NCBI GenBank assembly: GCA_000746015.1
Contig: JQKK01000005.1
Span: 62,001 to 126,000 of the forward strand
From: Lachnospiraceae bacterium MA2020
GTDB lineage: Bacteria; Bacillota; Clostridia; Lachnospirales; Lachnospiraceae
DNA: 64,000 nt
Reading direction: 5' to 3'
Shown one piece after another: positions 13,697 through 32,360 of this stretch. The first letter of the stretch is position 1. Every line of letters begins with the position of its first letter. The position numbers and the translations under genes were made by a program. Below the pieces are notes generated by a model. That model was given only the letters and a program-made list of their open reading frames with translations. It was not told where the DNA came from and did no database searches.

Positions 13697-15151
13697 ATGA
13701 GTTTTGTTTCGTTGGAGTTTTTGGTTTTTATAACGGCGCTGATAGGCATTTACTATGCGCTTATCCCGCCTAAGTGGAGATGGTGCGCGCTTCTGGCGGC
13801 GAGTATGGCTTTTTACCTGCTCTCAGATCGCGCAGCGTTTATATATTTTCTCAGTATGATCGTGGCATCTTACCTATTGTCACGATCCATCTACAACTTA
13901 AAGCTTAAAGGTGCCGCCAGCTCAGTGCAGAAGGGCATGCTTGCAGCGGCGATCCTGGTCACAATAATGCCGACACTTGTCACAAAGGATCTTGAGTATA
14001 TCTGGACAAGCATCTTAAATCATGAGTCTCATCACTGGATAATGGCGACGGGTATGTCGTTTTTTATGCTTCAGATGATCGCATATTATGTGGATATATG
14101 GAGGGGCAAGATCGAGCCCGAGAAGAATTTCTTTAAGTATGCGCTGTTTATTTCGTTCTTCCCACAGATAATCCAGGGTCCTATACCAAGATATGAGCAG
14201 CTCCACACTTCTCTTATGAAGGAGCACAGATGGGATGCTCGCGGATTGGTAAGAGGAGCGCAGCTTGTAATTTGGGGATTTTTCCTCAAGCTTATGATAG
14301 CTGACAAGGCAGGTATAGTAGTAGACAGTGTATTTAGTAATTACAGGACATACATGGGAGGCTATGTACTCGTTGCCGGGATCTTAAGCGGTTTTCAGGT
14401 CTACACTGATTTCGCTTCTTGTGTAAGTATCGCAAAGGGTGTATCTGAGATGCTGGGAGTTGAGCTTGCAGATAACTTCAATCACCCGTTTTTCTCAATA
14501 TCCATAAAGGACTTCTGGAGACGCTGGCACATGTCGCTTGGCAGCTGGCTGAGAGACTATATTTATTTCCCGCTGGGCGGAAGCCGCAAGGGCAAGGTGA
14601 GAAAGCATATCAATATTTTGATCACTTTCCTTGTAAGTGGTATCTGGCATGGCGCAGGCATCAAGTATGCGGTATGGGGTATCATGCATGGCATCTACCA
14701 GGTTGCAGGAGATATGAGTGCAGATCTTCAGTCTAAGATTTACAGGATCTTAGGTTTTGAAAAGGATTCAAGGCTTGAGATGTGGGGAAGACGCGCAGGA
14801 GTATTTATCTGGCTTATCCCAAACTGGATCATATTTAGGGCTGACAGTGTGAAGCAGGCCGCTTATATGATGCTCTCAGTATTTACAGTGAGAAATCCAT
14901 GGATCTTTTTTGATGATTCGCTTTTTACGCTTGGACTTGAATGGAAAGAGTGGGTAGTGCTCGCACTTTCGATCTATGTGCTTATGAAGGTGAGCATCAT
15001 GCAGGAAAAATGCGTCGTTCGTGACAGAGTGCTGGAGCAGCCGCTTGTTGTGAGATGGACGCTCTACATAGCAGCGATTGTGATCATATGGGTATTTGGA
15101 ACTTACGGATTTGGCTTTAATGCAAAGGACTTTATATATGCAGCTTTCTAA
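13697..15151 (+). CDS. MBOAT family O-acyltransferase (AlgI/DltB-like)
   Basis: Polytopic membrane acyltransferase of 484 residues, thought to move acyl groups from a cytoplasmic donor across the membrane to a surface polymer. Hydrophobic segments span nearly the whole length. The MBOAT signatures are clear: WRRWHMSLGSWLRDYIYFPL near residues 272-291, and the catalytic His in SGIWHGAG near 315. AAGGTGG precedes the ATG. It overlaps the next gene by 14 bp, which implies translational coupling with the SGNH partner, the usual AlgI/AlgJ or DltB/DltD type arrangement. Without dltA or dltC nearby, D-alanylation is less likely than O-acetylation of a glycan, but the target is unknown. Confidence 0.88.
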   Translation: MSFVSLEFLVFITALIGIYYALIPPKWRWCALLAASMAFYLLSDRAAFIYFLSMIVASYLLSRSIYNLKLKGAASSVQKGMLAAAILVTIMPTLVTKDLEYIWTSILNHESHHWIMATGMSFFMLQMIAYYVDIWRGKIEPEKNFFKYALFISFFPQIIQGPIPRYEQLHTSLMKEHRWDARGLVRGAQLVIWGFFLKLMIADKAGIVVDSVFSNYRTYMGGYVLVAGILSGFQVYTDFASCVSIAKGVSEMLGVELADNFNHPFFSISIKDFWRRWHMSLGSWLRDYIYFPLGGSRKGKVRKHINILITFLVSGIWHGAGIKYAVWGIMHGIYQVAGDMSADLQSKIYRILGFEKDSRLEMWGRRAGVFIWLIPNWIIFRADSVKQAAYMMLSVFTVRNPWIFFDDSLFTLGLEWKEWVVLALSIYVLMKVSIMQEKCVVRDRVLEQPLVVRWTLYIAAIVIIWVFGTYGFGFNAKDFIYAAF

Positions 15152-16673
15152 ATATATAGGGATAAGCAGACTCAGCCGGTTTCTCATGAATTATGCCGGC
15201 AGGTGTGCGATATTTTTAGCGTTGCTCATTATGGCGCTCCGGGTGACAACTACCTGGCTTGTGCCAAAGTATCTCAGCAACAATATGTATCCGACGACAA
15301 CGACATTTACAAGATTTTATGATATGAAAAAGGACAGCGTGGATGTGATATTCCTTGGAAGCAGTCACGCTGTAAACGGGTTTAATACGCAGGAGCTTTA
15401 CGATACTTACGGATACAGAAGCTATAATCTTGCGAGTGAGCAGCAGAATCTTCTCACATCATTTTACTGGCTTGAGGAAGCACTTCAGTATCAGAGCCCC
15501 AAGGTGGTAGTACTCGATGCTTTCATGGCATTTCCGCATGTTAAGGAGGAAAACTTAAATGCTGTAGAAGCGACCACTAGAAAGGCTTTTGACTACATGA
15601 GATGGGGAAAGGTCAAAAGAGATGCGGTGAAGGCTATCACAGACTATGATGACAGCCAGTCGCTCCTTAGCTATTATCTTCCGAATATCAGGTATCATGC
15701 GAGATGGACAGGACTTGAAAATGAGGATTTCCAGTTTGCTTTTGATCACTCTCCTGAGCTCAAGGGTACGGGAGTTTTGCTTGGAAGCTGCGGAAATGAC
15801 AGATACGGAACATTTACAACTTCTGAATCTGATACTGAGATGGCTGAAATGGCACCGGTGATGGTGGAATACTTAGAAAAGATCAATTCTCTCTGCAAGG
15901 AGAAGAAGATCGAGCTGATACTTACCATGACACCGGCTATCGACTATTCACTCAAAAAGAATACAGCAATGAGAGCATTTGCAGCTAAGCATGCCCTTCC
16001 TTTTTATGACTTTAATGATACTGCAGTATATGACGAGGCAGGGCTTGTTTTTGGCGATGACATGGCAGATATCGAGCATGCAAATATAGCAGGATCGGTA
16101 AAGATCACTGACTATATCGGAGAAAGACTGTTTGAGACGGGACTTTTGGAGAGTGTTGAAGATGAGCAGTGGAGCAGCAGCTCACAGTTTTTCAGAAACT
16201 GCCTTGAAGATTATGCCATTCACCATGAAAATGATTTTTATGCATATTTTGATATGCTCGAAAGAGACAGGTTTACTATCCTTATCTCGGCTTTGGGCGA
16301 AGCGACAGAGGCAATTGATGAAAATGTCGTTGCAGAGTTTCAAAAGCTTGGGCTTTCATGTATCCTCAAGAATGTCAGCTACGCCAGCTATATTGGTGTC
16401 GTGAATAAGGGTGAAGTGTATGAAAATGTCAGTGCAGGACTTGAAGGAGCGGTATCTTACAAAGGAATAATGGCAGATAAAGCCACAATGTTTGAGCTGC
16501 TGAGTAAAAATGGCGACTACACAGAGATGCAGAGCTCTATCATTATTGACGGAGAAGAATGTTCGATGATGAATAACGGACTTAATGTAGCAGTATATGA
16601 CAATGACAGCAAAAAACTGGTAGATAAGGTATGCTTTGACACGCATAATCCGGACTTGCCGGCGATAAGATAA
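15138..16673 (+). CDS. Membrane-anchored SGNH-type acyltransferase partner of MBOAT
   Basis: 511-residue protein with an N-terminal membrane helix (about 20-45) and an extracytoplasmic SGNH-like domain beginning FLGSSHAVNGF near residue 72, with the block I serine in GSSH. It probably completes acyl transfer from the MBOAT channel to the surface polymer. ATG at 15138 is preferred: AAAGGA lies 9 bp upstream and the product starts MQLSKYIG just before the helix. In-frame ATGs at 15096 and 15120 lie deeper inside the MBOAT gene. The C-terminal part (about 360-511) has no family I recognise. It is the last gene of the operon, before a hairpin shared with the convergent V-ATPase-like operon. Confidence 0.82.
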   Translation: MQLSKYIGISRLSRFLMNYAGRCAIFLALLIMALRVTTTWLVPKYLSNNMYPTTTTFTRFYDMKKDSVDVIFLGSSHAVNGFNTQELYDTYGYRSYNLASEQQNLLTSFYWLEEALQYQSPKVVVLDAFMAFPHVKEENLNAVEATTRKAFDYMRWGKVKRDAVKAITDYDDSQSLLSYYLPNIRYHARWTGLENEDFQFAFDHSPELKGTGVLLGSCGNDRYGTFTTSESDTEMAEMAPVMVEYLEKINSLCKEKKIELILTMTPAIDYSLKKNTAMRAFAAKHALPFYDFNDTAVYDEAGLVFGDDMADIEHANIAGSVKITDYIGERLFETGLLESVEDEQWSSSSQFFRNCLEDYAIHHENDFYAYFDMLERDRFTILISALGEATEAIDENVVAEFQKLGLSCILKNVSYASYIGVVNKGEVYENVSAGLEGAVSYKGIMADKATMFELLSKNGDYTEMQSSIIIDGEECSMMNNGLNVAVYDNDSKKLVDKVCFDTHNPDLPAIR

Positions 16674-16680
16674 AAAAAAG

Positions 16681-16740
16681 AAATGTCATTCTGAACGAAG
16701 TGAAGAATCTTATTCACTCTATTCAGGATGACATTTTTTT
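16681..16740. terminator. Bidirectional terminator made of a palindromic dispersed repeat (copy 2)
   Basis: AAATGTCATTCTGAA pairs with TTCAGGATGACATTT (one U-G pair) around a loop that holds a second small stem. A T-tract at 16734-16740 follows on the plus strand and an A-rich stretch at 16673-16683 gives Ts on the minus strand. It separates convergent operons. The segment 16684-16712 matches the repeat at 12335-12361. Confidence 0.8.
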
Positions 16741-17218
16741 ATTCAATCCTATTATCTATCTCTCGTGTCAGAAGCGGAAATTTTCCGTCATAGATGACGT
16801 TCAACAGTGCTGAAAGTGACTTCAGTGCCTTTGTGACGTCGTCTATTGAGAGGGCTCCGCTAGTTATGGCTTCTTCAAACTCATCAAGATCATCAACCTT
16901 TACAAAATCATCGGGATAAACGATCACATCTGCGAGGAGATCACGGAATACATAAGTGTTTTCGCCTTCTTTATATTCGTGATCTATTATGTCGCAGTAC
17001 CAGTACAGGAGATTCCCGTCTGCTTTTAAAAATTTACTTACTTTGTATCCCTTATTTAAAAAATAACATGAATAACCATGAGTAAATTCTTTTTTAGGGC
17101 GCAGTGTTTTCCACTGTGTGATTATCTTGTCTTCATCTTTGTAAAGAATGATATCATCTTTAAGCAAAATACATTCGGAAGGAATTATCCTTTTGCGATA
17201 GAGTTTTGGGTCAGCCAT
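16739..17218 (-). CDS. DUF402 domain protein
   Basis: 159-residue soluble protein with the DUF402 (PF04167) pattern YWYCDIID followed by DLLADVIVYPDDFVKVDDLDE. Characterised members of this fold, such as the Ntdp family, hydrolyse nucleoside di- and triphosphates or related phosphate compounds using a bound metal. The substrate here is unknown. It starts 12 bp after the stop of the B-like subunit with GGAGG upstream, so it is the last gene of the V-ATPase-like operon. A nucleotide hydrolase tied to an ATPase-like complex is suggestive, but linkage may be incidental. Confidence 0.8.
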   Translation of the reverse strand: MADPKLYRKRIIPSECILLKDDIILYKDEDKIITQWKTLRPKKEFTHGYSCYFLNKGYKVSKFLKADGNLLYWYCDIIDHEYKEGENTYVFRDLLADVIVYPDDFVKVDDLDEFEEAITSGALSIDDVTKALKSLSALLNVIYDGKFPLLTREIDNRIE

Positions 17219-17230
17219 AACGATACCTCC

Positions 17231-18256
17231 TCATTTGAGCTCAGGGTCAGCGAACTGTGAAAAAGATAATACCGGATCTATAGGCGGGATGACACCTCTG
17301 CGATACAAGTCTCTTGACAATATTATACGACCTTCTGTGATACGGCTGAGAGTAAGTGCAGCCTCCTTTGAAGCTTCATCAGAAGATGCTGTGAGCATAG
17401 GAAGGACGGTGATCGTTCCTACCCGGTCTTTGCGTTTGCCGGAGCGCTCAAAGATGGAAGCCAGATTTGAGTAGAGGCTCTCATGCTGCAGGGGCTCAGA
17501 CTCACGGAAAGCATCAGCGTAGCTTGCGAGGTCGGTCATTATCACAAGGACATCCATATTTTTTTCGAATGCAATATATTCAGCTGCGGTCATTGCAAAC
17601 TTGGGAGCTTCGAGGCACTCAAGCGGAGAGTGACCTGCAAAGCTTATAAAGGAAACACTTCGGTCGATCGCGCCGGATTTTTTCATATTTTCAACGAACA
17701 GGTCTATTTCTTCTGAGGCAGACCCAAGAGCGGCAAAAACGACAGACATATTTGTGCTTTCGGCAATCTGGGCGGCGAGGCTGAGGTGAGGTACGCCAGG
17801 TTCAGATATGATAGCCATTTTTTGTCCCTTTGCGATAGGGCAGACATCGTCAATGCCGGAAATGCCGGTAACGAGCCTGTCGGCAGGCATTTCTCTTGAA
17901 AGCGGATTTACCGGTAAGCCTTCTACATTGACATACATGTCTGCCAGAAGCTCCGGAGCACCATCTATCGGACGGCCTAGCCCGTCGAATATACGTGAGA
18001 AAAGGTCATCTGACACACCTAAAGTTGGCTTTTTTCCGGAAAAAAACACCTTTGAGGACGATGGATTTATACCGAAGTTATCATCATAAACCTGAAGTAC
18101 GGCATGTTTTTTATCAACTTCTATCACCTGAAATCTGGCGATGCTTTTATCTTCAAGCTCTATATGTCCAAATTCGCCATATCTGACATCTTCAACGCCG
18201 TCAACAGTGATGAAGGAGCCGGAGATTTTGGAAATTGTTTTATAACATTTAGCCAT
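17231..18256 (-). CDS. ntpB: V-type ATPase subunit B-like protein, short form lacking C-terminal domain
   Basis: 341 residues, against about 460 for ordinary bacterial/archaeal V/A-type B subunits. The N-terminal barrel and nucleotide-binding domain are recognisable: GRPIDG, NPLSREMP, GISGIDDVCPIAKGQK and SEPGVPHLSLAAQIA (the degenerate P-loop usual in B), then SIFERSG, ITEGRIILSRDLYRRG and PPIDPV. The family continues with an SLSRLM-type segment carrying the arginine finger, then a C-terminal helical domain that contacts the rotor. Here the protein diverges to LSFSQFADPELK and stops. No leftover coding sequence follows before the next gene, so this is a settled short form and not a fresh frameshift. 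It overlaps subunit A by 1 bp (TAATG). Confidence 0.85.
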   Translation of the reverse strand: MAKCYKTISKISGSFITVDGVEDVRYGEFGHIELEDKSIARFQVIEVDKKHAVLQVYDDNFGINPSSSKVFFSGKKPTLGVSDDLFSRIFDGLGRPIDGAPELLADMYVNVEGLPVNPLSREMPADRLVTGISGIDDVCPIAKGQKMAIISEPGVPHLSLAAQIAESTNMSVVFAALGSASEEIDLFVENMKKSGAIDRSVSFISFAGHSPLECLEAPKFAMTAAEYIAFEKNMDVLVIMTDLASYADAFRESEPLQHESLYSNLASIFERSGKRKDRVGTITVLPMLTASSDEASKEAALTLSRITEGRIILSRDLYRRGVIPPIDPVLSFSQFADPELK

Positions 18257-19902
18257 TATCTGCCCTCCTCTCTGGTTGCAGCTTTCTGGACATCAGAATT
18301 AAGGTGCTCGATGATATTTCGATAAGCACTTCCGAGATCCTTGTCTTCGGTATGCTTAAATGCAGCGATCTCATCAAGAGAAGAGATGGATGTAAGCGCC
18401 TCTACAGGTGCCCCGTCATCGAGTGTTTTCTTTGCCAATCTATAATAGTCGTAAATGAGGCGCATATATTTGTACTGTTTATCGAGAGAACAGCCATATA
18501 TTTCCTCATGTGCATCCTGAGTTATAAAATCGTCGCAGATCACAGATACAGTCCTGTCGATAAGCTTTTCGGCATCGGAGAGTGTATCTTTATCAATGTC
18601 TGCATCGGGTGCAAGACCCAGCAGCTCGGTAAACTTTGAGCTGAATTTTGCCCAGTTATCATTTACATTTTTATTAAACCACTCGCGGGTATTTTCTGCG
18701 TAGAGAGAATAGCTGCGTATGGCATCGATTGCAGGAAAATGCTTCTTTTCTGCAAGTGCGGAATCTAAAGTTAACATAACTTTGGCACTTCTTTCGGTAG
18801 CTGGATCCGGATGTCTGTCCGATGAAGCGATGAAAGTGATGGTACCCTCGCGAGCTTCACGACCGATAGCTGCAACTCTTCCAACTCTCTCATAAATACG
18901 GGCAAGATATGGACTTACCTCATGTTCATCCGGATATGCGGAGAGGAGACTTTCCTGCCAGACTGAAAGTGAATCAGCGATAAGTACTACATTACAGCCC
19001 ATTTCTCTATAGTATTCAGCAATGGTAACGCCTGTATACAAGGAAGCTTCACGCATTGCGGGATTCATATCAGCAGTTGTTGCGATTATGACAGACTTCC
19101 TGGTCATTGCCTTTGAAGATAAGATGTCGAGTATGTGGAGCATTTCATTTCCACGCTCGCCGCAGCCAACGTAAACGAGTACATCTACGTCTACAGAAGC
19201 GGCTATCTGATACTCGAGAGTAGTCTTACCTGTACTGTATCCGCCGCAGATAGCTGTGATGCTGCCCTTTGCGATAGGATATATAGCGTCAATGGCGCGC
19301 TGCAGCGTAACGATAGGCTCGCCCGGAAGAAGCTTTTCAGCAAATGGGCGAGGGGCGCGGATCGGCCATTTATGCATGATGCTGATCTCATGAAGCGTAT
19401 TATCGTGACCGTTTATAGACACAACGATATCGGTCAGCTTGCAGGGATTTTCGTTGATCGCCCTGATTGTGCCAGACACGTTATGCGGAACAAGTATCTT
19501 GTGTATTATCTTGTCGTCTTCGGCGACAGTTCCAAGAACATCTCCACCAAAAACCTCGTCACCTACGTTCACGCGTGCTTTGAAATCCCAGAGTTTTTCG
19601 TGATCGAGCTGGGGAGCATCTGGATCGTCAAGAGGACGACCGATGCCGTCGTAGATTTTTCCTAATAGTCCCGGGCCTAATTCTATAGTGACAGGACCTT
19701 TATCTGATACAACGCTGTGTCCAAGTTCGATATCGGTTGCCCTGTCAAAGAGGTGGATCAATGCTTCTCCATTTTCAAATCCTATTATCTCGCCTGATAT
19801 ATCGCGATGCGGAAAACGTACTACATCATATAGTCCGGAATCATTGAGCCCTTCGGCTGCAAGGAACTGTCCGGAGACTTTTGTAATAGTACCCTTACTC
19901 AT
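18256..19902 (-). CDS. ntpA: V-type ATPase catalytic subunit A-like protein, divergent
   Basis: 548 residues, slightly shorter than the usual 580-590. The order is an N-terminal barrel, the non-homologous insert of A subunits (about 110-180), the ATPase core and a C-terminal helical domain. Walker A is GGYSTGKT at 220-227, where the family normally has GPFGSGKT. The catalytic glutamate lies in GCGERGNEM at about 247-254, and the Walker B strand ends in IAD at 308-310. The conserved loop that normally reads about GRLEEMPGEEG is shortened to YPDEHEVS near 323-330, and the SGGDFSEP-type segment is ASSDRHPDP. ATP hydrolysis therefore looks possible, but the head is unusual. It lies 22 bp after subunit E and is coupled to B. 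Confidence 0.88.
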   Translation of the reverse strand: MSKGTITKVSGQFLAAEGLNDSGLYDVVRFPHRDISGEIIGFENGEALIHLFDRATDIELGHSVVSDKGPVTIELGPGLLGKIYDGIGRPLDDPDAPQLDHEKLWDFKARVNVGDEVFGGDVLGTVAEDDKIIHKILVPHNVSGTIRAINENPCKLTDIVVSINGHDNTLHEISIMHKWPIRAPRPFAEKLLPGEPIVTLQRAIDAIYPIAKGSITAICGGYSTGKTTLEYQIAASVDVDVLVYVGCGERGNEMLHILDILSSKAMTRKSVIIATTADMNPAMREASLYTGVTIAEYYREMGCNVVLIADSLSVWQESLLSAYPDEHEVSPYLARIYERVGRVAAIGREAREGTITFIASSDRHPDPATERSAKVMLTLDSALAEKKHFPAIDAIRSYSLYAENTREWFNKNVNDNWAKFSSKFTELLGLAPDADIDKDTLSDAEKLIDRTVSVICDDFITQDAHEEIYGCSLDKQYKYMRLIYDYYRLAKKTLDDGAPVEALTSISSLDEIAAFKHTEDKDLGSAYRNIIEHLNSDVQKAATREEGR

Positions 19903-19924
19903 GTTACCGTACTCCCCTTTTAAT

Positions 19925-20524
19925 TTATGTACTAAATAATTTTGAATTAACGTCGTCTTTCATTTTTTCACATGCATCTTTTAGAAGGGTGTCTATTGAG
20001 CAATCCTCTTCTATGCCATCGTATGAAAGTATGAAGCCGCCATCTATGTCTGCCGGCTCTTTAGATATGGTAAGACTTCCATGCTTTAACTCAAGCTCCA
20101 TATTTACAAGTATTTCATATGCAGGAGGCAAACGATCAAGATCCTCCGCAGAGAAAAGAAGCTCTCCTTTCTTATTAGAAAGTGCGTGCTTCTTGATGAT
20201 TTTTTTCATCATGGGAAAATATACTTCACTCGGCACGTGCTTTATATAGTTGCCAGCTCTTTCAAACATATTGTTTATAAGCAGCTGCTTTTCGGAAAGT
20301 ATCATCTGCTTCTTTTGAAAAGAAGCCTCGTAATGAGCTTTCCTGAGTATGCTGTCTGCTTCATTTTCACCGTTTTTGATTATTGTTTGTGCCTCATTAT
20401 CCGCTTCGAGGCGTGTCTTTGTAAAGAGCTCGCTGGCTTCTAAGGTAGCCTTGCCCTTTATTGCAGCTATCCTTGCATCAGAGTCGGTTTTTATCTGCTC
20501 AAGGATTTTTTCCAGTCCACTCAT
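19925..20524 (-). CDS. ntpE: V-type ATPase subunit E-like peripheral stalk protein
   Basis: 199 residues. A long N-terminal helix (about 1-110), rich in Ala, Glu and Lys, is followed by a globular C-terminal domain with LTISKEPADIDGGFILSY, the most conserved stretch of the E family. In ordinary V/A-ATPases, E pairs with G/H to form the stator stalk that ties the A3B3 head to subunit I. Its start codon overlaps the end of the I-like gene region, and its ribosome binding site (GAGGAGG) is encoded within the last codons of that gene, so the two are translationally coupled. Confidence 0.88.
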   Translation of the reverse strand: MSGLEKILEQIKTDSDARIAAIKGKATLEASELFTKTRLEADNEAQTIIKNGENEADSILRKAHYEASFQKKQMILSEKQLLINNMFERAGNYIKHVPSEVYFPMMKKIIKKHALSNKKGELLFSAEDLDRLPPAYEILVNMELELKHGSLTISKEPADIDGGFILSYDGIEEDCSIDTLLKDACEKMKDDVNSKLFST

Positions 20525-20526
20525 GA

Positions 20527-21675
20527 TCAGAAGACCTCCTCAAACTCGTAGTATTTAGTGTGAATACCAAACGGCGTAAACTCGCGCCTTCCGCCGGAAT
20601 GGATCTTTTCAGAAAAGCTGATGACTCCGCCGATCGGAACAGAGCGACCGCTTATCTCAAAACGGATAGGCGGCTTTTCACCGGGTGCAGGGTCAGATAA
20701 TTCTATATGTAATGCCTTATGATCAGAAAGAGCTTCATTAAGATCATCGATATCTTTTTCTGCGATCCATCCATTCAGTATGAAAGTATGCTTAGAAATG
20801 GCAAGGCGTGATGTTACACCTGTCCGGTCTTTGCATATATGGCTATAATCTATGAAAAACTTGATACGGTCTCTTTCCTCACTCAGACTCTTAAGCTGGG
20901 CTTTTATGGTATTGATACGTCCCTTTAATTCTTTCAAATGGTTTTCGCGGAGATGAAACTCTTTGGAAGGGATCATTTCAGAGTCGGGAGCAAAGTCAAA
21001 GCTTAAATGCTCAAGAGTGACTTTAATGTTTTGCGCATCACGTCTATGGCAGATAACTACTATGTACACACGGTTTTCGGTAGATGCGAGATTTTTAATG
21101 CCGACACCTACGATACCGGGAGTGTTTTCTTCGATAGTTTCGATAAGTGACTTGTCATCTAAGGCGTCATTCGAAGATTTAAACATTGATCCAACGAAAA
21201 AGCGTGTATCCTGTGTTCCTTCATAATTAAATGGGACATCCAGTTTGATCCATGGGCGCATTTCCTCAAGTGATGCTTCAGCAGAGGGAATAGCAGCCTC
21301 GATCTCCTTCAATTCCTTCTCAAGTGAGAGTATATTATCTATGACAGCAAGTGTATTGTCATATTCTTTGACCCATTGCTGGAATTGTGACTTATCTAAT
21401 ACATTTTCGCGCTTAAACTGACGCTGGACGAAACTGTATTTTTGCGGTGAATATTTCTCAAGAACCTTAAGCGAATCGGAAGCGTGGGCAGCGTTAGTTT
21501 CGAAAGTGTCAACCTGCCTACCGGTATCCTCATATGAAAAAACACTATCATTTTTAAAAGTGGAACGGTCATCTATAATTTCAACTGAGTGCAGACGCTG
21601 CAAAGACTCAAGTATAGGATCGAGGTCTTTGATAAGACCGAAAAGCGCAAGGCGCTTCATTGACAAAACAGCCAT
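20527..21675 (-). CDS. ntpI: V-type ATPase subunit I-like protein, cytoplasmic half only
   Basis: 382 residues, against about 650 for full subunit I. The N-terminal cytoplasmic pattern is clear: MAVLSMKRLALFGLIKD, LQRLHSVEIID, paired coiled coils (about 105-145 and 250-285) and FILNGWIAEKDIDDL near 318. The next section starts like the family (EKPPIRF) but then turns to a short tail ending YEFEEVF. None of the membrane helices that form the proton or sodium half-channel are present. The gene ends cleanly within the ribosome binding site of the E gene. As built, it could collar EG stalks but could not conduct ions. Confidence 0.85.
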   Translation of the reverse strand: MAVLSMKRLALFGLIKDLDPILESLQRLHSVEIIDDRSTFKNDSVFSYEDTGRQVDTFETNAAHASDSLKVLEKYSPQKYSFVQRQFKRENVLDKSQFQQWVKEYDNTLAVIDNILSLEKELKEIEAAIPSAEASLEEMRPWIKLDVPFNYEGTQDTRFFVGSMFKSSNDALDDKSLIETIEENTPGIVGVGIKNLASTENRVYIVVICHRRDAQNIKVTLEHLSFDFAPDSEMIPSKEFHLRENHLKELKGRINTIKAQLKSLSEERDRIKFFIDYSHICKDRTGVTSRLAISKHTFILNGWIAEKDIDDLNEALSDHKALHIELSDPAPGEKPPIRFEISGRSVPIGGVISFSEKIHSGGRREFTPFGIHTKYYEFEEVF

Positions 21676-21694
21676 AGCATTTCCCCCTTCTCAC

Positions 21695-22003
21695 CTATGC
21701 AAGGCTATTTATTATTGATTGGATTATCTCATCTTCTTTGGATGAAGCAAGCGCTCTCAAACTCTCTATTTCTTCCTCGGCAGAAGAAATATATGCTTCG
21801 ACGAGCTTTTTGGCTTCTTCATTGGCTGAAGCAACAGCTGCACTTGACGCAGCGTGAGCATCTATCAGTATAGACTTTCTAAGCTCTTCGGCTTCGACCT
21901 CTGCGTCTGCCTGCATCCTGCCGGCTTCAAGGTATGCCTGCTCCTCAGCTGATGCTGCAGAGAGCTCGGCATTGCGTATTTCTTCGATAGTATCTGTAAA
22001 CAA
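21695..22003 (-). CDS. V-type ATPase subunit G/H-like coiled-coil stalk protein (TTG start)
   Basis: 102-residue, almost wholly helical protein rich in Ala, Glu and Ser, as in the G/H (NtpF/AhaH) peripheral stalk partners of subunit E. The start is taken as TTG at 22001-22003 because a strong GGAGGGG site lies 6 bp upstream; an ATG further upstream at 22022-22024 would bury that site inside the gene. It is the first gene of the operon, about 40 bp downstream of a good promoter and 19 bp before the I-like gene. Low complexity makes the family call less certain than the gene call; position and partner genes support it. Confidence 0.75.
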   Translation of the reverse strand: MFTDTIEEIRNAELSAASAEEQAYLEAGRMQADAEVEAEELRKSILIDAHAASSAAVASANEEAKKLVEAYISSAEEEIESLRALASSKEDEIIQSIINSLA

Positions 22004-22134: not shown

Positions 22135-22212
22135 TCAACATAATTATGTTCAGTTGCCGGATAGCGGCATGGACTATGAAGAAAATAAACGTATAGACAT
22201 ATGGAGGATATT

Positions 22213-23295
22213 ATGCGTACTTATCTTGTTACTGGTGGGGCTGGTTTCATCGGTTCGAACTTTGTTCATTACATGTTTAGGAAGTATGGAGATGAGATCC
22301 GTATCATCAACGTTGATGCGCTCACCTATGCAGGAAACCTTGCAAACCTTAAGGATTTTGAAGGAAAAGAAAACTACACATTTGTGAAGGCTGACATCCG
22401 TGATAAGGCTGCCATCACAAAGATTTTTGAAGAGAATGATATAGACAGAGTTGTAAACTTTGCCGCAGAGAGCCATGTTGACAGAAGTATTGCGAACCCT
22501 GAGGTTTTCGTTGAGACTAACGTACTTGGCACACTTGTAATGCTCAATGCTGCAAAGCAGGCATGGGAGAATGAGGACGGCTCATTTAAGGAAGGTAAGA
22601 GATTCCTTCATGTTTCAACTGATGAGGTTTATGGATCACTTGAGAATCCAGAGGATTACTTCTATGAGACAACACCTTATGATCCACACAGCCCATACTC
22701 AGCAAGTAAGGCATCATCAGACTTCATCGTAAAGGCATATGTTGATACATACCACTTCCCGGCGTTTATCACAAACTGCTCAAACAACTATGGCCCTTAC
22801 CAGTTCCCTGAGAAGCTTATCCCGCTCATCATCAACAATGCACTCAGCGGCAAGAAGCTTCCTGTATACGGAGACGGTAAGAATGTTCGTGACTGGCTCT
22901 ATGTAGATGATCACTGCAAGGGTATCGATATGGTACTTGAGAACGGAAGACTTGGTGAGAAGTACAATATCGGCGGACACAATGAGAAGCAGAATATCGA
23001 GATAATCCATATCATTCTTGATACACTTAAGGAGTATCTCCCTGACTCAGATCCACGTAAGGCAAACGTAAGCGAGGATCTCATTACTTACGTAACAGAC
23101 CGTAAGGGACACGACAGAAGATATGCTATCGCACCTGACAAGATCAAGGCTGAGCTTGGCTGGGAGCCAGAGACATGCTTTGCAGAGGGCATTAAGAAGA
23201 CTATCAAGTGGTACCTTGAGAACCTTGACTGGATGACAAACATCACAAGCGGAGACTATCAGCAGTACTACGAGAAGATGTATAAGGATAGATAA
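22213..23295 (+). CDS. rfbB: dTDP-glucose 4,6-dehydratase
   Basis: 360-residue NAD-dependent short-chain dehydrogenase/reductase that converts dTDP-glucose to dTDP-4-keto-6-deoxyglucose, the second step toward dTDP-L-rhamnose. Visible motifs are the Rossmann TGGAGFIGSN at the N-terminus, NFAAESHVDRSI, STDEVYG and the catalytic YSASKASSD. The length is typical. ATG at 22213 has GGAGG 5 bp upstream; the in-frame ATG at 22201 overlaps that site. It is first of a plus-strand operon with rfbA 22 bp downstream and diverges from the V-ATPase-like operon. Confidence 0.95.
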   Translation: MRTYLVTGGAGFIGSNFVHYMFRKYGDEIRIINVDALTYAGNLANLKDFEGKENYTFVKADIRDKAAITKIFEENDIDRVVNFAAESHVDRSIANPEVFVETNVLGTLVMLNAAKQAWENEDGSFKEGKRFLHVSTDEVYGSLENPEDYFYETTPYDPHSPYSASKASSDFIVKAYVDTYHFPAFITNCSNNYGPYQFPEKLIPLIINNALSGKKLPVYGDGKNVRDWLYVDDHCKGIDMVLENGRLGEKYNIGGHNEKQNIEIIHIILDTLKEYLPDSDPRKANVSEDLITYVTDRKGHDRRYAIAPDKIKAELGWEPETCFAEGIKKTIKWYLENLDWMTNITSGDYQQYYEKMYKDR

Positions 23296-23317
23296 TAATA
23301 TAGGGAGATAAATAAAG

Positions 23318-24187
23318 ATGAAAGGTATAATCCTTGCCGGAGGTTCCGGTACAAGACTTTATCCACTTACAAAGGCAGTTTCAAAGCAGATAATGCCGGT
23401 TTATGATAAGCCGATGATCTATTATCCGCTTTCAACACTTATGCTTGCAGGCATTCAGGATATTTTGATCATTTCTACACCAAGAGATCTTCCTGTATTT
23501 GAGGAGCTCTTTGGTGATGGATCACAGCTTGGTCTTAACTTTACATATAAGGTTCAGGAGCATCCAAACGGACTTGCTGAGGCATTTATCCTTGGAGCTG
23601 ATTTCATCGGAAATGACAGCGTTGCAATGGTTCTTGGAGATAATATCTTCTATGGACATGATCTTACAGCAGTGCTTGCCCGTGCAGCCGCAAGGCAGAG
23701 CGGTGCAACTATCTTTGGATACTATGTAAAGGATCCAAGAGCATATGGCGTAGTTGAGTTTGATGATGACGGAAGAGCTGTTTCCATCGAGGAAAAGCCG
23801 GAGCATCCAAAGTCAAAGTATGCGGTACCTGGACTTTACTTCTACGACAATGATGTAGTGGATATTGCAAGGAATGTTAAGCCATCAGCTCGTGGTGAGC
23901 TTGAGATAACCAGCGTAAACAATGCATATCTTGAGAGAGGAGATCTCTATGTAGAGACTCTCGGCAGAGGTTTTGCATGGCTTGATACAGGAAACCATGA
24001 TGCTCTTTTGGATGCAGCAGATTTCGTTGCTGCTTTCCAGAAGAGACAGGGATTATATATCTCATGTATAGAAGAAATTGCTTACAAGAAAGGCTTTATT
24101 ACTAAAGATCAGCTGCTCAAGCTTGCTGAGCCGCTTATGAAGACCGCTTACGGTCAGTATCTTGTAGATGTTTCGGAAGGATTATAA
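23318..24187 (+). CDS. rfbA: Glucose-1-phosphate thymidylyltransferase
   Basis: 289-residue nucleotidyltransferase that makes dTDP-glucose from dTTP and glucose-1-phosphate. The signature [11 protein letters not shown] is at the N-terminus; [27 protein letters not shown] and EEKPEHPKS follow, as in RmlA. The full-length family size is kept. AGGGAG precedes the start. The gene overlaps the next one by 20 bp. Confidence 0.95.
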
Positions 24188-25403
24188 GAGCCTTGCCATT
24201 ATAGCGGCAGTACTGACTACAGCTACTGCTGCTGTGGCGCTGGCCCTGACAGGCTATAGCCGTGAGGTGCAGTCAAAGCAGGCGAAAGCTTTAGCGGCTG
24301 CTTCCACAGAGGCTTATGAGACTGAGCAGTATATTGGACTCGGAGAAGCTGATTTTCAGAGTATCAGCTCGGGAGTCATGGGAGCTCAGTCATCGGCTCA
24401 TAAAAAACAAAAACTGACATTGTTGCTTTCATCACTGGATCATGATATCAGGATGATGGTAGTTGATGAAAATGGAAATCTTGTTAAAAACCAGGATTTC
24501 CATGTTTTTATCACCGGGGATAATGATACCGGAGAGTATCAGGATTCAGATATGGATGGAGTGATATATGCCGGTAATCTGCCAAGTGGAAAATATTCGG
24601 TGCGATTAGAAGCTCTGGAAGGATTCAATGTGCCGAAGTCACAGACGGTGAAGGTGAGAAATCACATCACCTATAATACCATTGCAGACATCACTGCGCT
24701 TATCAGATCTGAGGCGGATATCGATGCTTCAAAGGAAGATACAGCGGATATCGGTGAAAGCGATGATGGAAGCCTGCTTGAGTCGGGAGAGATAGATCTC
24801 TCATCGGGAACTATCGGAATCGACGTATCAAAGTACAATAAGGATATCGACTGGGAAAAGGTAAAAGCTTCCGGTATAGAGTTTGCGATAATAAGGCTTG
24901 GCTACAGAGGATCATCGACAGGTGTGCTTGTTGAGGACCCTTATTTTGAGAAAAACTTTGCAGGAGCTAAGGCTGCAGGAGTAAAAAGGGGTGTCTATTT
25001 CTTTACACAGGCACTAAATGAGCAGGAGGCGATAGAGGAAGCTGAGATGGTTGCTGCCTTTGTCGAGCCGTCAGAGCTCTCAACTCCGGTATTTTTGGAT
25101 GTTGAGACAGCACATGGTCGCGGCGACCTTATAAGTGCGGATCAACGGACAGCCAATATAAATGCTTTTTGCAAAGCTCTTGAGGAAAAAGGATACAAAG
25201 CCGGTGTCTATGCAAATAAGACATGGTTTAATAAATATATAAACACGGATGCGCTTGATGGATGGAAGATATGGCTTGCACAGTATAAAGTCAAGTCGCC
25301 TACATGGAAAGGCCACTATGATGCATGGCAGTACTCTTCAAAGGGACATGTAGATGGTATCAGCGGTTACGTTGATCTCGATCTTAATCTATCATTAAAT
25401 TAA
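24168..25403 (+). CDS. Membrane-anchored glycoside hydrolase family 25 (lysozyme-like) protein
   Basis: 411 residues. A short basic N-terminus (MFRKDYK) is followed by a membrane or uncleaved signal helix (about 8-29), then a Ser/Ala-rich region, a small beta domain (about 85-175) reminiscent of a prealbumin-like fold, and a C-terminal GH25 domain from about 220. GH25 features are [13 protein letters not shown] near the start, [10 protein letters not shown], and [12 protein letters not shown] with the catalytic Asp/Glu pair in the DxE arrangement. It is expected to cleave peptidoglycan between MurNAc and GlcNAc. It sits inside the dTDP-rhamnose genes, overlapping rfbA by 20 bp and 20 bp before rfbC. 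It may open the wall for export or attachment of the polysaccharide, which is inference. Confidence 0.85.
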
Positions 25404-25423
25404 TTATATTAAGGAGTTAAACA

Positions 25424-25990
25424 ATGGGACAGATTACAGTAGAAACCTGTGAAATTGAAGGATTGAAGGTTATCACACCTAAGGTATTTGGTGATGAGAG
25501 AGGCTATTTCATGGAGACATACAACCATGATGATTTTGTAAATGCAGGTATCACAAATACTTTTGTGCAGGACAACCAGTCATCATCAACAAAGGGAGTT
25601 TTGAGAGGTATGCACTTCCAGAACAACTTCCCACAGGCTAAGCTTGTAAGATGCTTAAAGGGAGAAGTATACGATGTTGCAGTAGACCTTCGTCCGGATT
25701 CTGCTACATTTGGTAAGTGGTTTGGTGTAACCCTTTCAGAAGAAAACAAGAAGATGTTCTTCATCCCACGTGGATTTGCACATGGTTTCCTTGTACTTTC
25801 TGACGTTGCTGAGTTTGCTTACAAGTGCGATGATCTCTATCATCCGGGTGATGACGGCGGACTTCGTTTCGATGATCCTGAGATCGGTATCGTATGGCCT
25901 GACAGCGTAAAAGAGTCAGAGCTTAACATCAACGACAGAGACAGAAACTGGCCATTGTTCAGCGAATATAAGAAGGAACGTAATCTTTAA
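25424..25990 (+). CDS. rfbC: dTDP-4-dehydrorhamnose 3,5-epimerase
   Basis: 188-residue cupin epimerase that inverts C3 and C5 of dTDP-4-keto-6-deoxyglucose. Conserved features include GDERGYFMETYN, the substrate-binding stretch FVQDNQSSSTKGVLRGMHFQ (with the catalytic His in GMHFQ), and FIPRGFAHGF. AAGGAG precedes the ATG. No rfbD (dTDP-4-dehydrorhamnose reductase) follows, so the final reduction must be encoded elsewhere if L-rhamnose is made. Confidence 0.95.
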   Translation: MGQITVETCEIEGLKVITPKVFGDERGYFMETYNHDDFVNAGITNTFVQDNQSSSTKGVLRGMHFQNNFPQAKLVRCLKGEVYDVAVDLRPDSATFGKWFGVTLSEENKKMFFIPRGFAHGFLVLSDVAEFAYKCDDLYHPGDDGGLRFDDPEIGIVWPDSVKESELNINDRDRNWPLFSEYKKERNL

Positions 25991-25993
25991 GCT

Positions 25994-26968
25994 ATGGAAA
26001 AGAAAAAGAAAGTCGTCCTGACCTCACTTGTGATAGTTCTGGTCTGGAATGCCTATATCATCCTGCATCACAATGTCCTTGCGGATCCGGTGCAGGAGAT
26101 CCTTAAAAAGATAATATCATGCTGCATGCTAAATGCTGCATATATAGGCTTTGTGCTTGGCTATGATAGGATAGTCTCACTCCCGGTAGAGCTCTGGCAA
26201 AACCGGGAGCTCATATGGAAACTTGCCAAAAATGATTTCAAATCGAGGTATGCCGGCTCTTATCTCGGCATATTTTGGGCGTTTGTACCGCAGATAGTGA
26301 CAGTGCTCGTGTACTGCTTTGTATTTTCTGTCGGCGTGAGATCAGATGCTACGGGAAGTACGGACTATCCGTTTGTGCTTTTCTTAGTTGCAGGCATATG
26401 TCCGTGGTTTTTCTTCTCAGAGGCATGGAACAGCGGAACAAGTGCATTTCTTTCATACGAGTACCTCGTTAAAAAGGTCGTGTTTAAGATAAGCATACTT
26501 CCGATAATCAAGGTAATATCAGCGCTTTTCATACACTTTTTCTTTATATTGCTGGTTGCGATACTTATGATCGTGTGCGGATATACACCGACGATTTACT
26601 GGCTTGAGATACCGTATTTTACATTCTGTACCTTCGTGCTGGTGCTTGGCATGAGCTATGTGACTTCTTCACTTGTGGTATTTTTCAGAGATATCGGCCA
26701 GTTTATCAATATTTTGATGCAGGTGGGTATCTGGATCACACCTATCATGTGGCACATAGAAGCACTGCCTCGTCCATTCCAGATATTGTTTAAGCTCAAT
26801 CCGGTCTACTATGTTGTAGACGGATTCAGGATGGCTTTCCTCGATAAGATGTGGTTTTTTGAACACTTCTATTCGACAGCATATTTTTGGATCTTCACTG
26901 TAGTTATGTTCATCTTTGGCGCAGTAGTTTTCAAGAAGCTGAAGGTGCATTTTGCAGATGTCTTGTAG
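25994..26968 (+). CDS. ABC-2 type polysaccharide export permease (Wzm/TagG-like)
   Basis: 324-residue integral membrane protein. The core matches the ABC-2 permeases that export O-antigen or teichoic-acid type polymers: LAKNDFKSRYAGSYLGIFWAF near residue 76, and the late LNPVYYVVDGFRMAF near 270. About six helices lie in the core. In addition there is an N-terminal extension of about 65 residues with one or two extra hydrophobic segments (about 9-24 and 38-56), longer than typical for the family. It starts 3 bp after rfbC. The partner ATPase is 44 bp downstream. Confidence 0.9.
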   Translation: MEKKKKVVLTSLVIVLVWNAYIILHHNVLADPVQEILKKIISCCMLNAAYIGFVLGYDRIVSLPVELWQNRELIWKLAKNDFKSRYAGSYLGIFWAFVPQIVTVLVYCFVFSVGVRSDATGSTDYPFVLFLVAGICPWFFFSEAWNSGTSAFLSYEYLVKKVVFKISILPIIKVISALFIHFFFILLVAILMIVCGYTPTIYWLEIPYFTFCTFVLVLGMSYVTSSLVVFFRDIGQFINILMQVGIWITPIMWHIEALPRPFQILFKLNPVYYVVDGFRMAFLDKMWFFEHFYSTAYFWIFTVVMFIFGAVVFKKLKVHFADVL

Positions 26969-27012
26969 TAAACAGATAAAAAATTACGTTTACTATATAA
27001 AAGGAATAATTT

Positions 27013-28326
27013 ATGTCAGATATAGCGATAAAAGTCGAGCATCTCGACAAGGTCTATAAGCTCTATGATCATAGACGCGACCGTCTGAGGGATGCTCTGG
27101 GACTTACAAAGAAAAAATTATATCACGAGCATTATGCACTTCACGATGTTTCAATGGAAGTAAAGAAAGGTGAAACGGTTGGAATTATCGGAACTAACGG
27201 TTCCGGTAAGTCAACCATCCTTAAGATAATTACAGGCGTGCTCAATCCATCTGCCGGAAATGTTGATATCCAGGGCAGGATATCTGCACTTCTTGAGCTT
27301 GGTGCCGGATTCAATATGGAGTTTACCGGTATTGAAAATGTTTACCTGAACGGTACAATGATCGGTTTTTCTAAGGCGGAGATCGATGCTAAGCTCAATG
27401 ATATTTTGGATTTTGCAGACATCGGAGATTTTGTATATCAAAAGGTCAAGACCTACTCAAGCGGTATGTTTGTCAGGCTTGCTTTTGCGGTAGCTATCAA
27501 CATTGAGCCAGAGATACTTATAGTAGATGAGGCTCTTTCGGTTGGAGATATTTTCTTCCAGAATAAGTGCTATCACAAGTTTGAGGAGTTTAAGAAGGCA
27601 GGAAAGACCATTGTCTTCGTAAGCCATGACCTTTCAAGCATATCGAAGTATTGTGACAGAGTCATACTTCTCGACAGAGGAAAGAAGCTTGGCGAGGGTA
27701 CACCAAAGACCATGATAGACATGTACAAAAAGGTACTTGTCAATCAGCTCGATTCCAAGCCGGGAGACAATGCACAGTCGCTCAATCGCGGCGGCATGAA
27801 GGACGCTGACGGCAATGATAATAATGCCGTGCCAAAGCGCTGGATGGACAAGATGGTGCTCAATCCTTCGCAGGATACTTATGGAAATGGTCTTGCTGAG
27901 ATAGTAGATTTTTGCTGCGTGGATAACAGCGGTCAGATAACAAATACAGTTATCAAGGGTGACAGCTTTACCATACGCATGAAAGTCAGATTTAATGCAA
28001 GGATACAACAGCCGATACTCGCATGTTCATTTAAGAACAGGATGGGCGTTGAGATAACGGGAACCAATACCATGTTTGAAAAACTGGATACAGGTAATCC
28101 CGAAGCTGGGGAAGTTATGGTCGTGAACTTTACACAGGAGATGAGTCTGCAGGGTGGAGAGTACCTGATCTCATTTGGCTGTGTTGGCTATAGGGAAGGC
28201 GAGTTCACTGTATATCATAGGCTATATGACATATTTAGCTTAAATGTCATTTCATCAAAGGACACAGTAGGCTATTATGATATGGGGATGGAAACTACTG
28301 TAGAGATGCTGGAGGGCGATGAATAA
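27013..28326 (+). CDS. wzt: Polysaccharide export ABC ATPase with C-terminal carbohydrate-binding domain (Wzt-like)
   Basis: 437 residues. The ATPase domain (about 1-245) has Walker A GTNGSGKST at about 60-68, signature YSSGMFVRLAFA, and Walker B ILIVDEALSVGD, as in the Wzt/TagH group. A second domain (about 285-437) is a beta-sandwich of the Wzt C-terminal type, which in O9a-like systems recognises the modified non-reducing end of the finished polysaccharide. This implies a synthase-free ABC route with chain-end recognition. The next gene, a methyltransferase-kinase fusion, begins directly after its stop codon, which fits that model. Confidence 0.92.
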   Translation: MSDIAIKVEHLDKVYKLYDHRRDRLRDALGLTKKKLYHEHYALHDVSMEVKKGETVGIIGTNGSGKSTILKIITGVLNPSAGNVDIQGRISALLELGAGFNMEFTGIENVYLNGTMIGFSKAEIDAKLNDILDFADIGDFVYQKVKTYSSGMFVRLAFAVAINIEPEILIVDEALSVGDIFFQNKCYHKFEEFKKAGKTIVFVSHDLSSISKYCDRVILLDRGKKLGEGTPKTMIDMYKKVLVNQLDSKPGDNAQSLNRGGMKDADGNDNNAVPKRWMDKMVLNPSQDTYGNGLAEIVDFCCVDNSGQITNTVIKGDSFTIRMKVRFNARIQQPILACSFKNRMGVEITGTNTMFEKLDTGNPEAGEVMVVNFTQEMSLQGGEYLISFGCVGYREGEFTVYHRLYDIFSLNVISSKDTVGYYDMGMETTVEMLEGDE

Positions 28327-30567
28327 ATGGACGTGAAGCAGGAAAAAATAGGAAATGTAATATTAGATTACACTGATTACCCGGGAGAGGATTTTTACTC
28401 TGAGGGAAGCGACGAGGACAGGCTCCTTGAGATAGTCAAGGAGCATACAGACAAAGAGTTTAATCGCATAATCGCCGAAGAAAGGCGATGGAGTACCCTG
28501 TATCATCTGTCACACTTAAGGGGAAACATCGTGGATTTCCTGCCGATACAGCCACATGAAAAGGTTCTTGAGGTAGGAGCCGGATGCGGTGCTATCACAG
28601 GTGTACTTGCAAAGAAGGCAAAGAAAGTTACATGCATCGAGCTCAGCCGCAAGAGAAGCCTTATCAACGCCTATAAAAACAGGGATAAGGACAATATCGA
28701 GATCAAGGTTGGCAATTTCCAGGATGTGGAGAGCCACCTCAATGAGAAATACGACTATATCATGCTCATCGGAGTACTTGAGTATGCGCTTTCATATATT
28801 AACGATCCTAAACCTTATGAAAGATTCCTTGAGATACTCGCAGAGCATTTAAATACGGGCGGCAGGATAATCATTGCCATCGAGAACAAGTATGGCATGA
28901 AGTATTTTGCCGGAGCAAGAGAAGATCACACAGGAAGATACTTTGACAGCATCATGGGATACCCTCATGGCTCTGGTGTAAGGACATTTTCACGAGATCA
29001 GCTTGCCCGTCTTGCTGTTGATAATGGATTTATGTATAAGTTTTACTATCCATATCCGGACTACAAGCTCCCTATAATGATCTACTCTGATGATCGTCTT
29101 CCGGCTGTCGGAGATTTCACCATGAACGAAAGAAACTTTGACGGTGAAAGATTTACAGCGTTTGATGAGGGACTTGCTTTTGATGAGTCAGTACGCGACG
29201 GCAGTTTCCCATTTTTCTCAAACTCATTTTTGCTTGAGCTCTATAAGGAAAATAAGGTAGAGGGATTTAGTGTACGTCATCCTATCTACTCTAAGCATTC
29301 AAATGAGAGAGATGTTAGATTCCGTATAAGAACTGACATTGCAGAAGATGGCTATCATAAGAGATATGTTATGAAATTCCCTGCAGCTTCCGAGGCAGTA
29401 GCACATCTTGAGAAGATGTATGCTGCATTTGAGAAGATGAAGGAAGAATATGTCGGAACTAATTTCCGTCCAAATAATTGTGTGAGAAAAGTTGATGCAA
29501 ACGGCAAGCTTGAGTGTCTTGAGTTTGAATATCTTGATGGCATCACTATGGCTGATGAGCTCGACAGGCTTCGTAAACGAGGCAGGATCGACGATCTTAT
29601 CAGTGTCATGGTGAAGTTTAAGGAAACCCTTGAGACTATCGCCCGCAGAGATTTTTATATCACAGACGAATTTACTCAGATCTTTGGTGAGACAAAGATT
29701 CCGGGTTCGCATGCCAGCATGGGTACTACAAACGTAGATATGATATTTACAAATCTTGCGTACTCTGAGGGCTGGAATGTACTTGACTATGAGTGGACAT
29801 TTGACTTCCCTATACCGGTTGACTATGTCCTTTACCGCTCTATCCGCTATTATCTTGAGGATTCTGCAGATGACGAGCTCAAAAAGAGAGACATTTACGG
29901 CGTGCTCGGAATGAGTGAGGAAGAGCTCAAGATCTACGAGAGAATGGAAAATTCCTTCCAGAGATGGATTGCGGGAGATAAGCTTTCACTTATCGGCATG
30001 TACTCTATCTTTGGCGGAAATAACATTCATTTTGAAGAGGCGATCGGTAACGCAAGGCTTCTGGTCCGTCCTGAGAGAGTAAGACTTTACTTTGATTACG
30101 GCAAGGGCTTTAGCGAAGAAAATACTATTTTCGTAAATGCAGAAAGAGACGAGAATAATACTATTTCATTTGACACTAAGCTTCCGGAGGGATGTGTTGC
30201 ACTTAGGATAGATCCGGGCGATTTTTCATGCATATTGAAGCTTGTAAGCTGCAAGCTTAACAATAATGAAGTAGAGAAGTACCTTGTAAATGGAATATCG
30301 ATCAGAGATCATGTTGTGCTCTACGATACTGCTGATCCTCAGATAATTCTTGAGTATGCTCCGGGTGGGGCTGAGCTTCATCTTTCCTACACCCTTTCCA
30401 AGATTTCTAATGACTTTTATCTGCCGCTTGCAGACGAGATCAGAAATCAAAGGGCAAGACTTAAGGTGGCAGAGAGAAGTACCAAGAAGAAGGTTAAGGA
30501 TTTCCTCAAGCATGAGCAGCAAGTTGTGGAAGTTCCGTCAAGCTATGTCGAAGTGAAGGGTATCTGA
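28327..30567 (+). CDS. Methyltransferase-kinase fusion, WbdD-like polysaccharide chain terminator candidate
   Basis: 746 residues. The N-terminal class I SAM methyltransferase has motif I VLEVGAGCGAITG at about 80-92 and acidic CIELS at the end of strand 2. A kinase-like region follows (about 320-560): a candidate ATP-binding Lys in VMKFPA near 348, a hinge-like LEFEYLDGITM near 400, NVDMIFTN at 469-476 giving the catalytic D-x4-N spacing, and LDYEW at about 486-490 where the metal-binding Asp is expected. A C-terminal beta-rich part (about 575-710) and a basic helical tail complete it. In E. coli O9a, WbdD uses the same methyltransferase-then-kinase order to cap chains for Wzt. The methyltransferase is clear; the kinase and role are inference. 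Confidence 0.78.
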   Translation: MDVKQEKIGNVILDYTDYPGEDFYSEGSDEDRLLEIVKEHTDKEFNRIIAEERRWSTLYHLSHLRGNIVDFLPIQPHEKVLEVGAGCGAITGVLAKKAKKVTCIELSRKRSLINAYKNRDKDNIEIKVGNFQDVESHLNEKYDYIMLIGVLEYALSYINDPKPYERFLEILAEHLNTGGRIIIAIENKYGMKYFAGAREDHTGRYFDSIMGYPHGSGVRTFSRDQLARLAVDNGFMYKFYYPYPDYKLPIMIYSDDRLPAVGDFTMNERNFDGERFTAFDEGLAFDESVRDGSFPFFSNSFLLELYKENKVEGFSVRHPIYSKHSNERDVRFRIRTDIAEDGYHKRYVMKFPAASEAVAHLEKMYAAFEKMKEEYVGTNFRPNNCVRKVDANGKLECLEFEYLDGITMADELDRLRKRGRIDDLISVMVKFKETLETIARRDFYITDEFTQIFGETKIPGSHASMGTTNVDMIFTNLAYSEGWNVLDYEWTFDFPIPVDYVLYRSIRYYLEDSADDELKKRDIYGVLGMSEEELKIYERMENSFQRWIAGDKLSLIGMYSIFGGNNIHFEEAIGNARLLVRPERVRLYFDYGKGFSEENTIFVNAERDENNTISFDTKLPEGCVALRIDPGDFSCILKLVSCKLNNNEVEKYLVNGISIRDHVVLYDTADPQIILEYAPGGAELHLSYTLSKISNDFYLPLADEIRNQRARLKVAERSTKKKVKDFLKHEQQVVEVPSSYVEVKGI

Positions 30568-32345: not shown

Positions 32346-32360
32346 GCGATAAAGAGGATT

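Follow-up and report, generated by a model that had tools for sequence, protein, structure and literature searches.

A V-type ATPase operon without rotor genes in a Lachnospiraceae genome, possibly kept as a soluble ATP-binding scaffold

We analysed a 64,000-nt stretch of Lachnospiraceae bacterium MA2020 (GCA_000746015.1, contig JQKK01000005.1, positions 62,001-126,000), hereafter the window, to whose positions all coordinates refer. Its minus strand carries, at 16739-22003, six open genes in the order G-I-E-A-B-DUF402 (Table 1), five of them resembling subunits of V-type ATPases and all with intact open reading frames (ORFs). In agreement with the tight operon described by an earlier reading of the bare sequence (the original prediction), the genes are spaced, in order, by 19, 2, 22, -1 and 12 bases, and each of the six starts is preceded by a purine-rich Shine-Dalgarno-like stretch; for G we prefer the TTG at 22003, with GGAGGGG before it, to the GTG at 22024 where the listed ORF begins. 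One promoter and a terminator had also been proposed. A -35/-10-like pair indeed lies 5' of G at 22069-22041, but the scan found pairs of this kind about as often as chance predicts (13 versus 11.8 expected). The terminator is supported by a hairpin that was seen by eye and is absent from the signal scan; it is imperfect, carries T runs on both strands, is single-copy within the window and separates the operon from a convergent gene at 15096-16673.

Table 1. Genes of the operon and the hairpin at its 3' end (window positions)
Feature	Position	Strand	Basis
G-like peripheral stalk subunit, 102 aa	21695..22003	-	TIGR02926 AhaH weak match, gene position
I-like subunit, 382 aa, cytoplasmic collar domain and C-terminal tail	20527..21675	-	PRK05771, structure matches
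E-like peripheral stalk subunit, 199 aa	19925..20524	-	PF01991
A-like subunit, 548 aa	18256..19902	-	TIGR01043, alignment with 38 full-length A
B-like subunit, 341 aa	17231..18256	-	PRK04196, alignment with 42 full-length B
DUF402 protein, 159 aa	16739..17218	-	PF04167, E 2.3e-18, over cut-off
Long hairpin, terminator-like on both strands	16681..16736		read by eye

We read 22 V-type loci from the genus and 20 from the family, and found the gene order G-I-K-E-C-F-A-B-D, with DUF402 as the last gene in the genus loci. All ten genes were present in 17 of the 22 genus loci, five being cut by contig ends, while 18 of the 20 family loci ran from G to D and two lacked only a detected G. Judged by gene order and homology, the window operon is the V operon of the genus minus K, C, F and D. 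By the same comparison, DUF402 is its ordinary last gene: it directly follows D in 22/22 genus loci, which rules it out as a new or special component, and here it keeps 49 of 50 invariant residues. In the family loci a DUF402 match appeared twice in 20, both times upstream of G.

The lack of D, F, C and K, first noticed within the window, extends to the whole genome (3.72 Mb, 49 contigs, computed completeness 100%). D had no match across the 49 contigs, and a joined query for K, C, F and D found none of the four in this genome while detecting all of them in the control genomes G424 and G418. A search for a second, full-length I in the genome found none either. These searches rule out that the missing subunits are located elsewhere: neither the V-type rotor D/F with C, nor the K ring, nor the membrane half of I was found, and any ion-coupled ATP hydrolysis by the operon would be without an encoded membrane part. 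As for the separate complete V- or F-ATPase that the original prediction had proposed to look for, F-type operons do occur in the genome. PF00006 matches eight places in the genome, two in the window, two on contig C15, two on contig C9 and two others. On C15, Pfam identified an F-type operon gene by gene (a, c, b, delta-alpha fusion, gamma, beta and epsilon), which rules out a complete V-ATPase at this site, whereas the second operon on C9 (L010) is judged F-type-like by PF00006 and by ORF order and size only. The remaining two places may be FliI and Rho, names given by size and place only. Thus, the genome holds two F-type operons separate from the window operon. As a side observation, the delta-alpha fusion of the C15 operon (the operon being L009, G000 C15 96000-109257) measures 597 aa and has an OSCP stretch before alpha.

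In V-type enzymes A is the catalytic and B the non-catalytic subunit; here the best family models of A and B are V-type, both below the curated NCBIfam cut-offs (A versus TIGR01043 V-type A, E 2e-130, 436 bits against 972; B versus PRK04196 V-type B, E 5.4e-95, 319 bits against 349). Scores for FliI and type III secretion system (T3SS) families fell far under their cut-offs, for instance 154.5 bits for B and 123 for A against 619.1 for FliI clade 1, and the F-type atpA model (cut-off 484.45 bits) gave 92.6 for B and 73.7 for A. Compared with 38 full-length A subunits, the window A lacks 10 residues of the loop equivalent to the F1 sleeve, 7 of that equivalent to the F1 catch loop, and 5 residues equivalent to Enterococcus hirae A 472-476 on the DELSEED side, placed via the published R475-L476-V477 and 480-486 DSLSDND. 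Against 42 full-length B subunits, the sleeve loop of B is 9 residues shorter and its catch loop is replaced, with 2 of 18 invariant residues left. We take these V-type loops to be the counterparts of the F1 sleeve and catch loops by our own matching to the F1 sequence. The F1 loops are defined in a passage of PMC9447477, and excerpts of PMC3772951 and PMC3879392 place E. hirae A R475-V477 and B V388 and L389 close to R165-R166 in the rotor protein D. The window B has no C-terminal helical domain and hence no equivalents of V388 and L389. Even with this missing domain excluded, rotor-loop invariants were kept at 17 of 89 positions, versus 281 of 508 for the other invariants of A and B (p 1.7e-10). 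The losses, which the original prediction found to agree with each other, do so further than was noted, as the sleeve and catch loops of both subunits have gone as well.

Could the head borrow a rotor that is encoded at another site, either the F-type gamma or FliJ? Besides its F-type operons, the genome has a FliI-like gene with an ORF of FliJ size after it (FliI and FliJ being named by size and position only), and FliJ turns as an imperfect rotor in Thermus A3B3 according to a passage of PMC3665681. However, the loops that would grip such a rotor are precisely those lost, and B is without its C-terminal domain, making this the least probable of the alternatives and one that we hardly expect to be true.

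In contrast to the rotor, the peripheral stalks (EG) and the collar (I) of the V-type enzyme are present as judged from sequence and predicted structure, G being recognised by a weak match and its gene position. E scored over the PF01991 cut-off (E 3.3e-10); G matched TIGR02926 AhaH under the cut-off (E 1.5e-4) and shares 46-49% identity with its counterparts in G418, G421 and G424. The I-like protein matched NCBIfam PRK05771 (V-type subunit I) at E 4.7e-17, below cut-off, with nothing convincing in Pfam. It has no transmembrane stretch, showing no hydrophobic windows versus four to seven in six full-length I subunits, and at residues 352-381 it matches the terminal part of genome G110's full-length I (53%, E 3.5e-5). 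The short I of the original prediction therefore stands as regards the absent membrane half, but the protein is not merely short: it combines the cytoplasmic half with the conserved tail that ends the full-length subunit at its C-terminus. Its predicted model (mean predicted local distance difference test score, pLDDT, 83.9; residues 345-382 below 50) found V-type I/a subunits as best PDB matches, although the template modelling (TM) scores were modest (6qum_N, E 1.8e-12, TM 0.57 by query length; 3rrk, E 4.2e-11, TM 0.41).

The arginine finger, an R in 42/42 relatives, is Q334 in the window B; excerpts of PMC5095293 and PMC6371843 identify this residue as R350 of the E. hirae B subunit. Another candidate for the finger, ITEGQIILSRELYRKG, was ruled out, as the real one, lost in the window B, sits in the motif LPSLSRLKD. 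On the A side, K226, T227, E249, R250, D310, F389 and Q462 are kept, including the equivalents of E. hirae K238, E261, R262 and F425 together with the P-loop Thr, the Walker B Asp and the adenine-side Gln. Fast ATP hydrolysis is doubtful because the finger is Q, and these residues lead us to predict that ATP is bound but hydrolysed slowly or not at all. In F1, alanine at catalytic residues slowed rotation 1000- to 10000-fold without stopping it, as stated in a part of PMC5380711. The soluble ATPase machine of the original prediction is thus borne out as rotor-less and is probably repurposed, while its ATPase activity is in doubt.

An active rotor-free ATPase threading a substrate through a widened pore, in the manner of FliI/FliH or Rho, would be in line with the main A-side catalytic residues being kept, with the rotor-hole loops being among the most changed parts, and with a composition like that of the soluble FliI-FliH complex, in which FliH is similar to E (PMC3665681, in part). 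Nevertheless, the Q in place of the finger, the FliI and T3SS scores mentioned above and the lack of a known substrate speak against such an enzyme, which we consider distinctly unlikely.

An rpoB tree covering 37 of the genus's 48 genomes (six gave no match and five only fragments) groups MA2020 with G421 and G424 (92.6 and 92.4% identity) and then with G418. The joined A-B-E-I-G tree, comprising 35 taxa after 8 of 42 loci were left out for lack of one of the five proteins, separates the window, G418, G421 and G424 from the rest with 99% ultrafast bootstrap (UFBoot) support. The same group was recovered with E+G (94%), with A+B+I (85%) and with I alone in IQ-TREE, and FastTree placed E, G and DUF402 of the window inside its own species clade; an unfinished LG+C20 tree, without support values, likewise put the window beside this clade, with its branch at the upper limit of 10. 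As an observation apart, the V operon of one genus member (L125, G426) groups in the joined tree with other family genera, as if exchanged or as if the genome were misplaced.

By these comparisons the operon's rate of evolution exceeds that of its sisters many times over. The window branch measures 3.09 substitutions per site in the joined tree versus 0.16 for G418, and the resulting rate, some 20-fold that of G418, is approximate because the branch differs among gene subsets (E+G 0.91, I 1.64, A+B+I 4.98). Identity to G424 amounts to 0.43 for A and 0.475 for B, versus 0.85 and 0.936 between G418 and G424. DUF402 was not accelerated (0.65 versus 0.66). Furthermore, the operon appears to have moved to another locus, since the gene that lies beside G in G424, G421 and G418 stands here on contig C10 (L142, C10 44000-62000) without V genes: the best tblastn match at this sister site was a 50-residue piece of C (E 0.003), which we take as chance. 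The C10 stretch also carries two more neighbours common to G421 and G424.

The reduced gene set, which the original prediction proposed to seek in related genomes, is not conserved there: the relatives have full-length genes, and among the genomes searched (for B, among the matches listed) the reduced form occurs in this genome only. Subunit I matched in 119 of 397 family genomes, the only one-piece short I being that of the window, with G214 and G090 giving split matches. V-type B was found full-range in 26 of the 48 genus genomes, several of which are incomplete, as a fragment in one (G400), short in one (the window's), and not at all in 20. Wider surveys matched B in 234 of 391 class genomes at 1e-40 and in 198 of 397 family genomes at 1e-45; besides the window's, the B frames below 430 aa among the matches listed all came from the class survey, namely the contig-end pieces of G773 and G811 and a frame with an internal stop in G674. 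A search of named genomes for related loci, which may omit the window's own genome, gave one 26% match on a Melainabacteria contig. Our searches of open-licence PMC papers listed none whose title and abstract describe a rotor-less or truncated bacterial V operon.

Several of our observations weigh against a retained function. As in genes that are losing their role, the arginine finger is gone and the branch is extremely long; of the invariant positions in A, 4 of 7 are kept in the P-loop (GGYSTGKT versus GPFGTGKT) and, near the adenine Phe, 7 of 11, and the Phe three places after the kept Gln (F in 38/38 relatives) is deleted. Although the predicted A model has E. hirae A subunits as its best PDB matches, it is weak in the domain that binds the nucleotide (mean pLDDT 69.9, with many parts below 50). 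Three lost stretches lie off the known rotor contacts (13 residues starting the A bulge, the A FPEL loop and the B RGTDEPF), and the rotor loops were named after the gaps had been seen, though by homology to published contacts. In addition, the rotor-free A3B3 of T. thermophilus disassembles when ATP is present (a passage of PMC3665681), and the weight of the claim is limited by its being carried by a single genome. Some single-gene trees disagree as well: in FastTree, I joined L064 (local support 0.97), B joined L059/L118 (0.95) and A had no resolved position, while IQ-TREE grouped B, with weak support, with L080. We take the deviating I and B placements as long-branch effects, and the FastTree conflict is balanced by the IQ-TREE subset trees. 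Transfer from a distant family is thus less likely despite these disagreements, given the joined, E+G, A+B+I and I-only groupings, and descent from the V-ATPase of the genus is, from the sequences, the most likely origin.

Many of the same points would be expected of a relict heading for loss, in which a pump that was no longer needed, F-type ATPases being still present, had its pieces deleted and the rest left to drift, with perhaps one or two subunits still used. This is the main rival to a retained scaffold. The long branch, the missing finger, the weak A model and the single occurrence all favour it, as does the common loss of V-ATPases in the genus, where 20 of 48 genomes (some incomplete) show no V-type B. 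Yet simple decay fits poorly with the sequences because no stop occurs in the operon, versus a mean of 43.7 (range 21-64, 200 runs) in a simulation of neutral change to the same divergence, and because E keeps 18 of 19 invariant residues compared with 70 of 179 variable ones. The simulated figure is a guide only, since retained G424 codons were changed at random to the same amino-acid divergence, so that the start is a living sister and the model a crude one with substitutions only. Invariant residues were also preferentially kept in A (164/301 versus 72/247 variable), B (138/259 versus 24/82) and I (23/31 versus 104/343), those of G (3/3 versus 44/99) being too few to tell; every gene has kept its frame and ribosome site, and the deletions fall in frame. 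The original prediction had named full-length genes in relatives, with one strain's decay, as evidence to the contrary: the first was found, whereas the second agrees badly with the intact operon. As the remaining genes are intact, a new job for the leftover shell is suggested, and we regard the relict as rather unlikely, though clearly ahead of the other alternatives.

We therefore favour, at about even chances of being right, an explanation in which the V-type operon of the genus was inherited in the species and then moved to a new locus, where the parts needed for rotation and transport would have been stripped off: K, C, D and F, the membrane half of I, the C-terminal domain of B and the rotor-contact loops of A and B. 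The remaining subunits would assemble as a soluble shell made of an A3B3 ring, the N-terminal barrels forming its crown, and of EG stalks running from this crown to the I collar, which would join their feet. The ring would bind ATP through the residues kept in A, and with the finger of B gone its hydrolysis would be slow or nil. We hypothesize that the shell serves as an ATP-dependent scaffold, in which bound ATP keeps the ring from opening and a putative partner is presented or clamped by EG-I. The sequences themselves show the losses, the kinship, the rapid evolution, the unbroken frames and the conserved stalk residues, from which assembly, slow hydrolysis and the scaffold role are deduced. 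A rotorless F1 ring still cycles, according to an excerpt of PMC5380711, and in the window's ring the stalks and collar, or slow hydrolysis, might prevent it from falling apart in ATP.

Adjoining the operon, the window contains at 22201-34388 a cluster for surface polysaccharide export, which comprises genes of dTDP-sugar synthesis, glycosyltransferases and a Wzm/Wzt-like exporter, with an ABC-2 membrane protein and a Wzt_C ATPase; its closeness to the operon may be due to chance. Farther away, at 43793-44995, a protein with a HipA-like C-terminal domain (PF07804, E 3.4e-7) is possibly one half of a toxin-antitoxin pair.

Among known systems, the operon is closest in the joined tree to the V/A-type ATPases of its genus (G424 L054, G421 L058 and G418 L053), with which it shares gene order, the terminal DUF402 and homologous G, I, E, A and B. 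It differs from them by the absence of K, C, F, D, the membrane half of I, the C-terminal domain of B, the rotor loops and the arginine finger, and by its divergence: identity amounts to 33-49% across A, B, E, I and G, as compared with 59-94% between G418 and G424. As a ring without shaft it is reminiscent of isolated A3B3 from E. hirae or Thermus and of rotorless F1 alpha3beta3, of which the Thermus ring hydrolyses ATP briefly (PMC3665681, in part). Those, however, are laboratory preparations that have their rotor loops and arginine finger, whereas the lack in the window is encoded in the genome. The flagellar-type FliI-FliH-FliJ export ATPase likewise has a soluble ring of homologous ATPase subunits and, with it, a stalk protein resembling E, as set out in a passage of PMC3665681. 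FliI, however, is a homohexamer with FliJ, in contrast to the heteromeric A/B pair with I collar found here, whose FliI scores are far below cut-off. Rotary heads in other uses also exist among the mollicute F1-like ATPases (the MMOB1660 gliding and MSC_0618/0619 families), which are derived from F1 and not from V1, and for which the window proteins score far under cut-off.

Set beside these systems, the window operon may represent a natural V1 stator without rotor, arisen within one genus, from which rotor, ring seats and finger were lost together and which selection would have kept as a soluble ATP-binding scaffold, a possibility that we see as evenly poised. Its shaft, ring seats, membrane motor and catalytic trigger are gone while stalks and collar are kept. 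The sister species with full-length operons provide a before-and-after pair, so that residues needed only for rotation could be separated from those needed for assembly. The question of whether the ring of a rotary ATPase works without a shaft has been addressed with isolated rings, and in this genome evolution seems to have carried out the same experiment.

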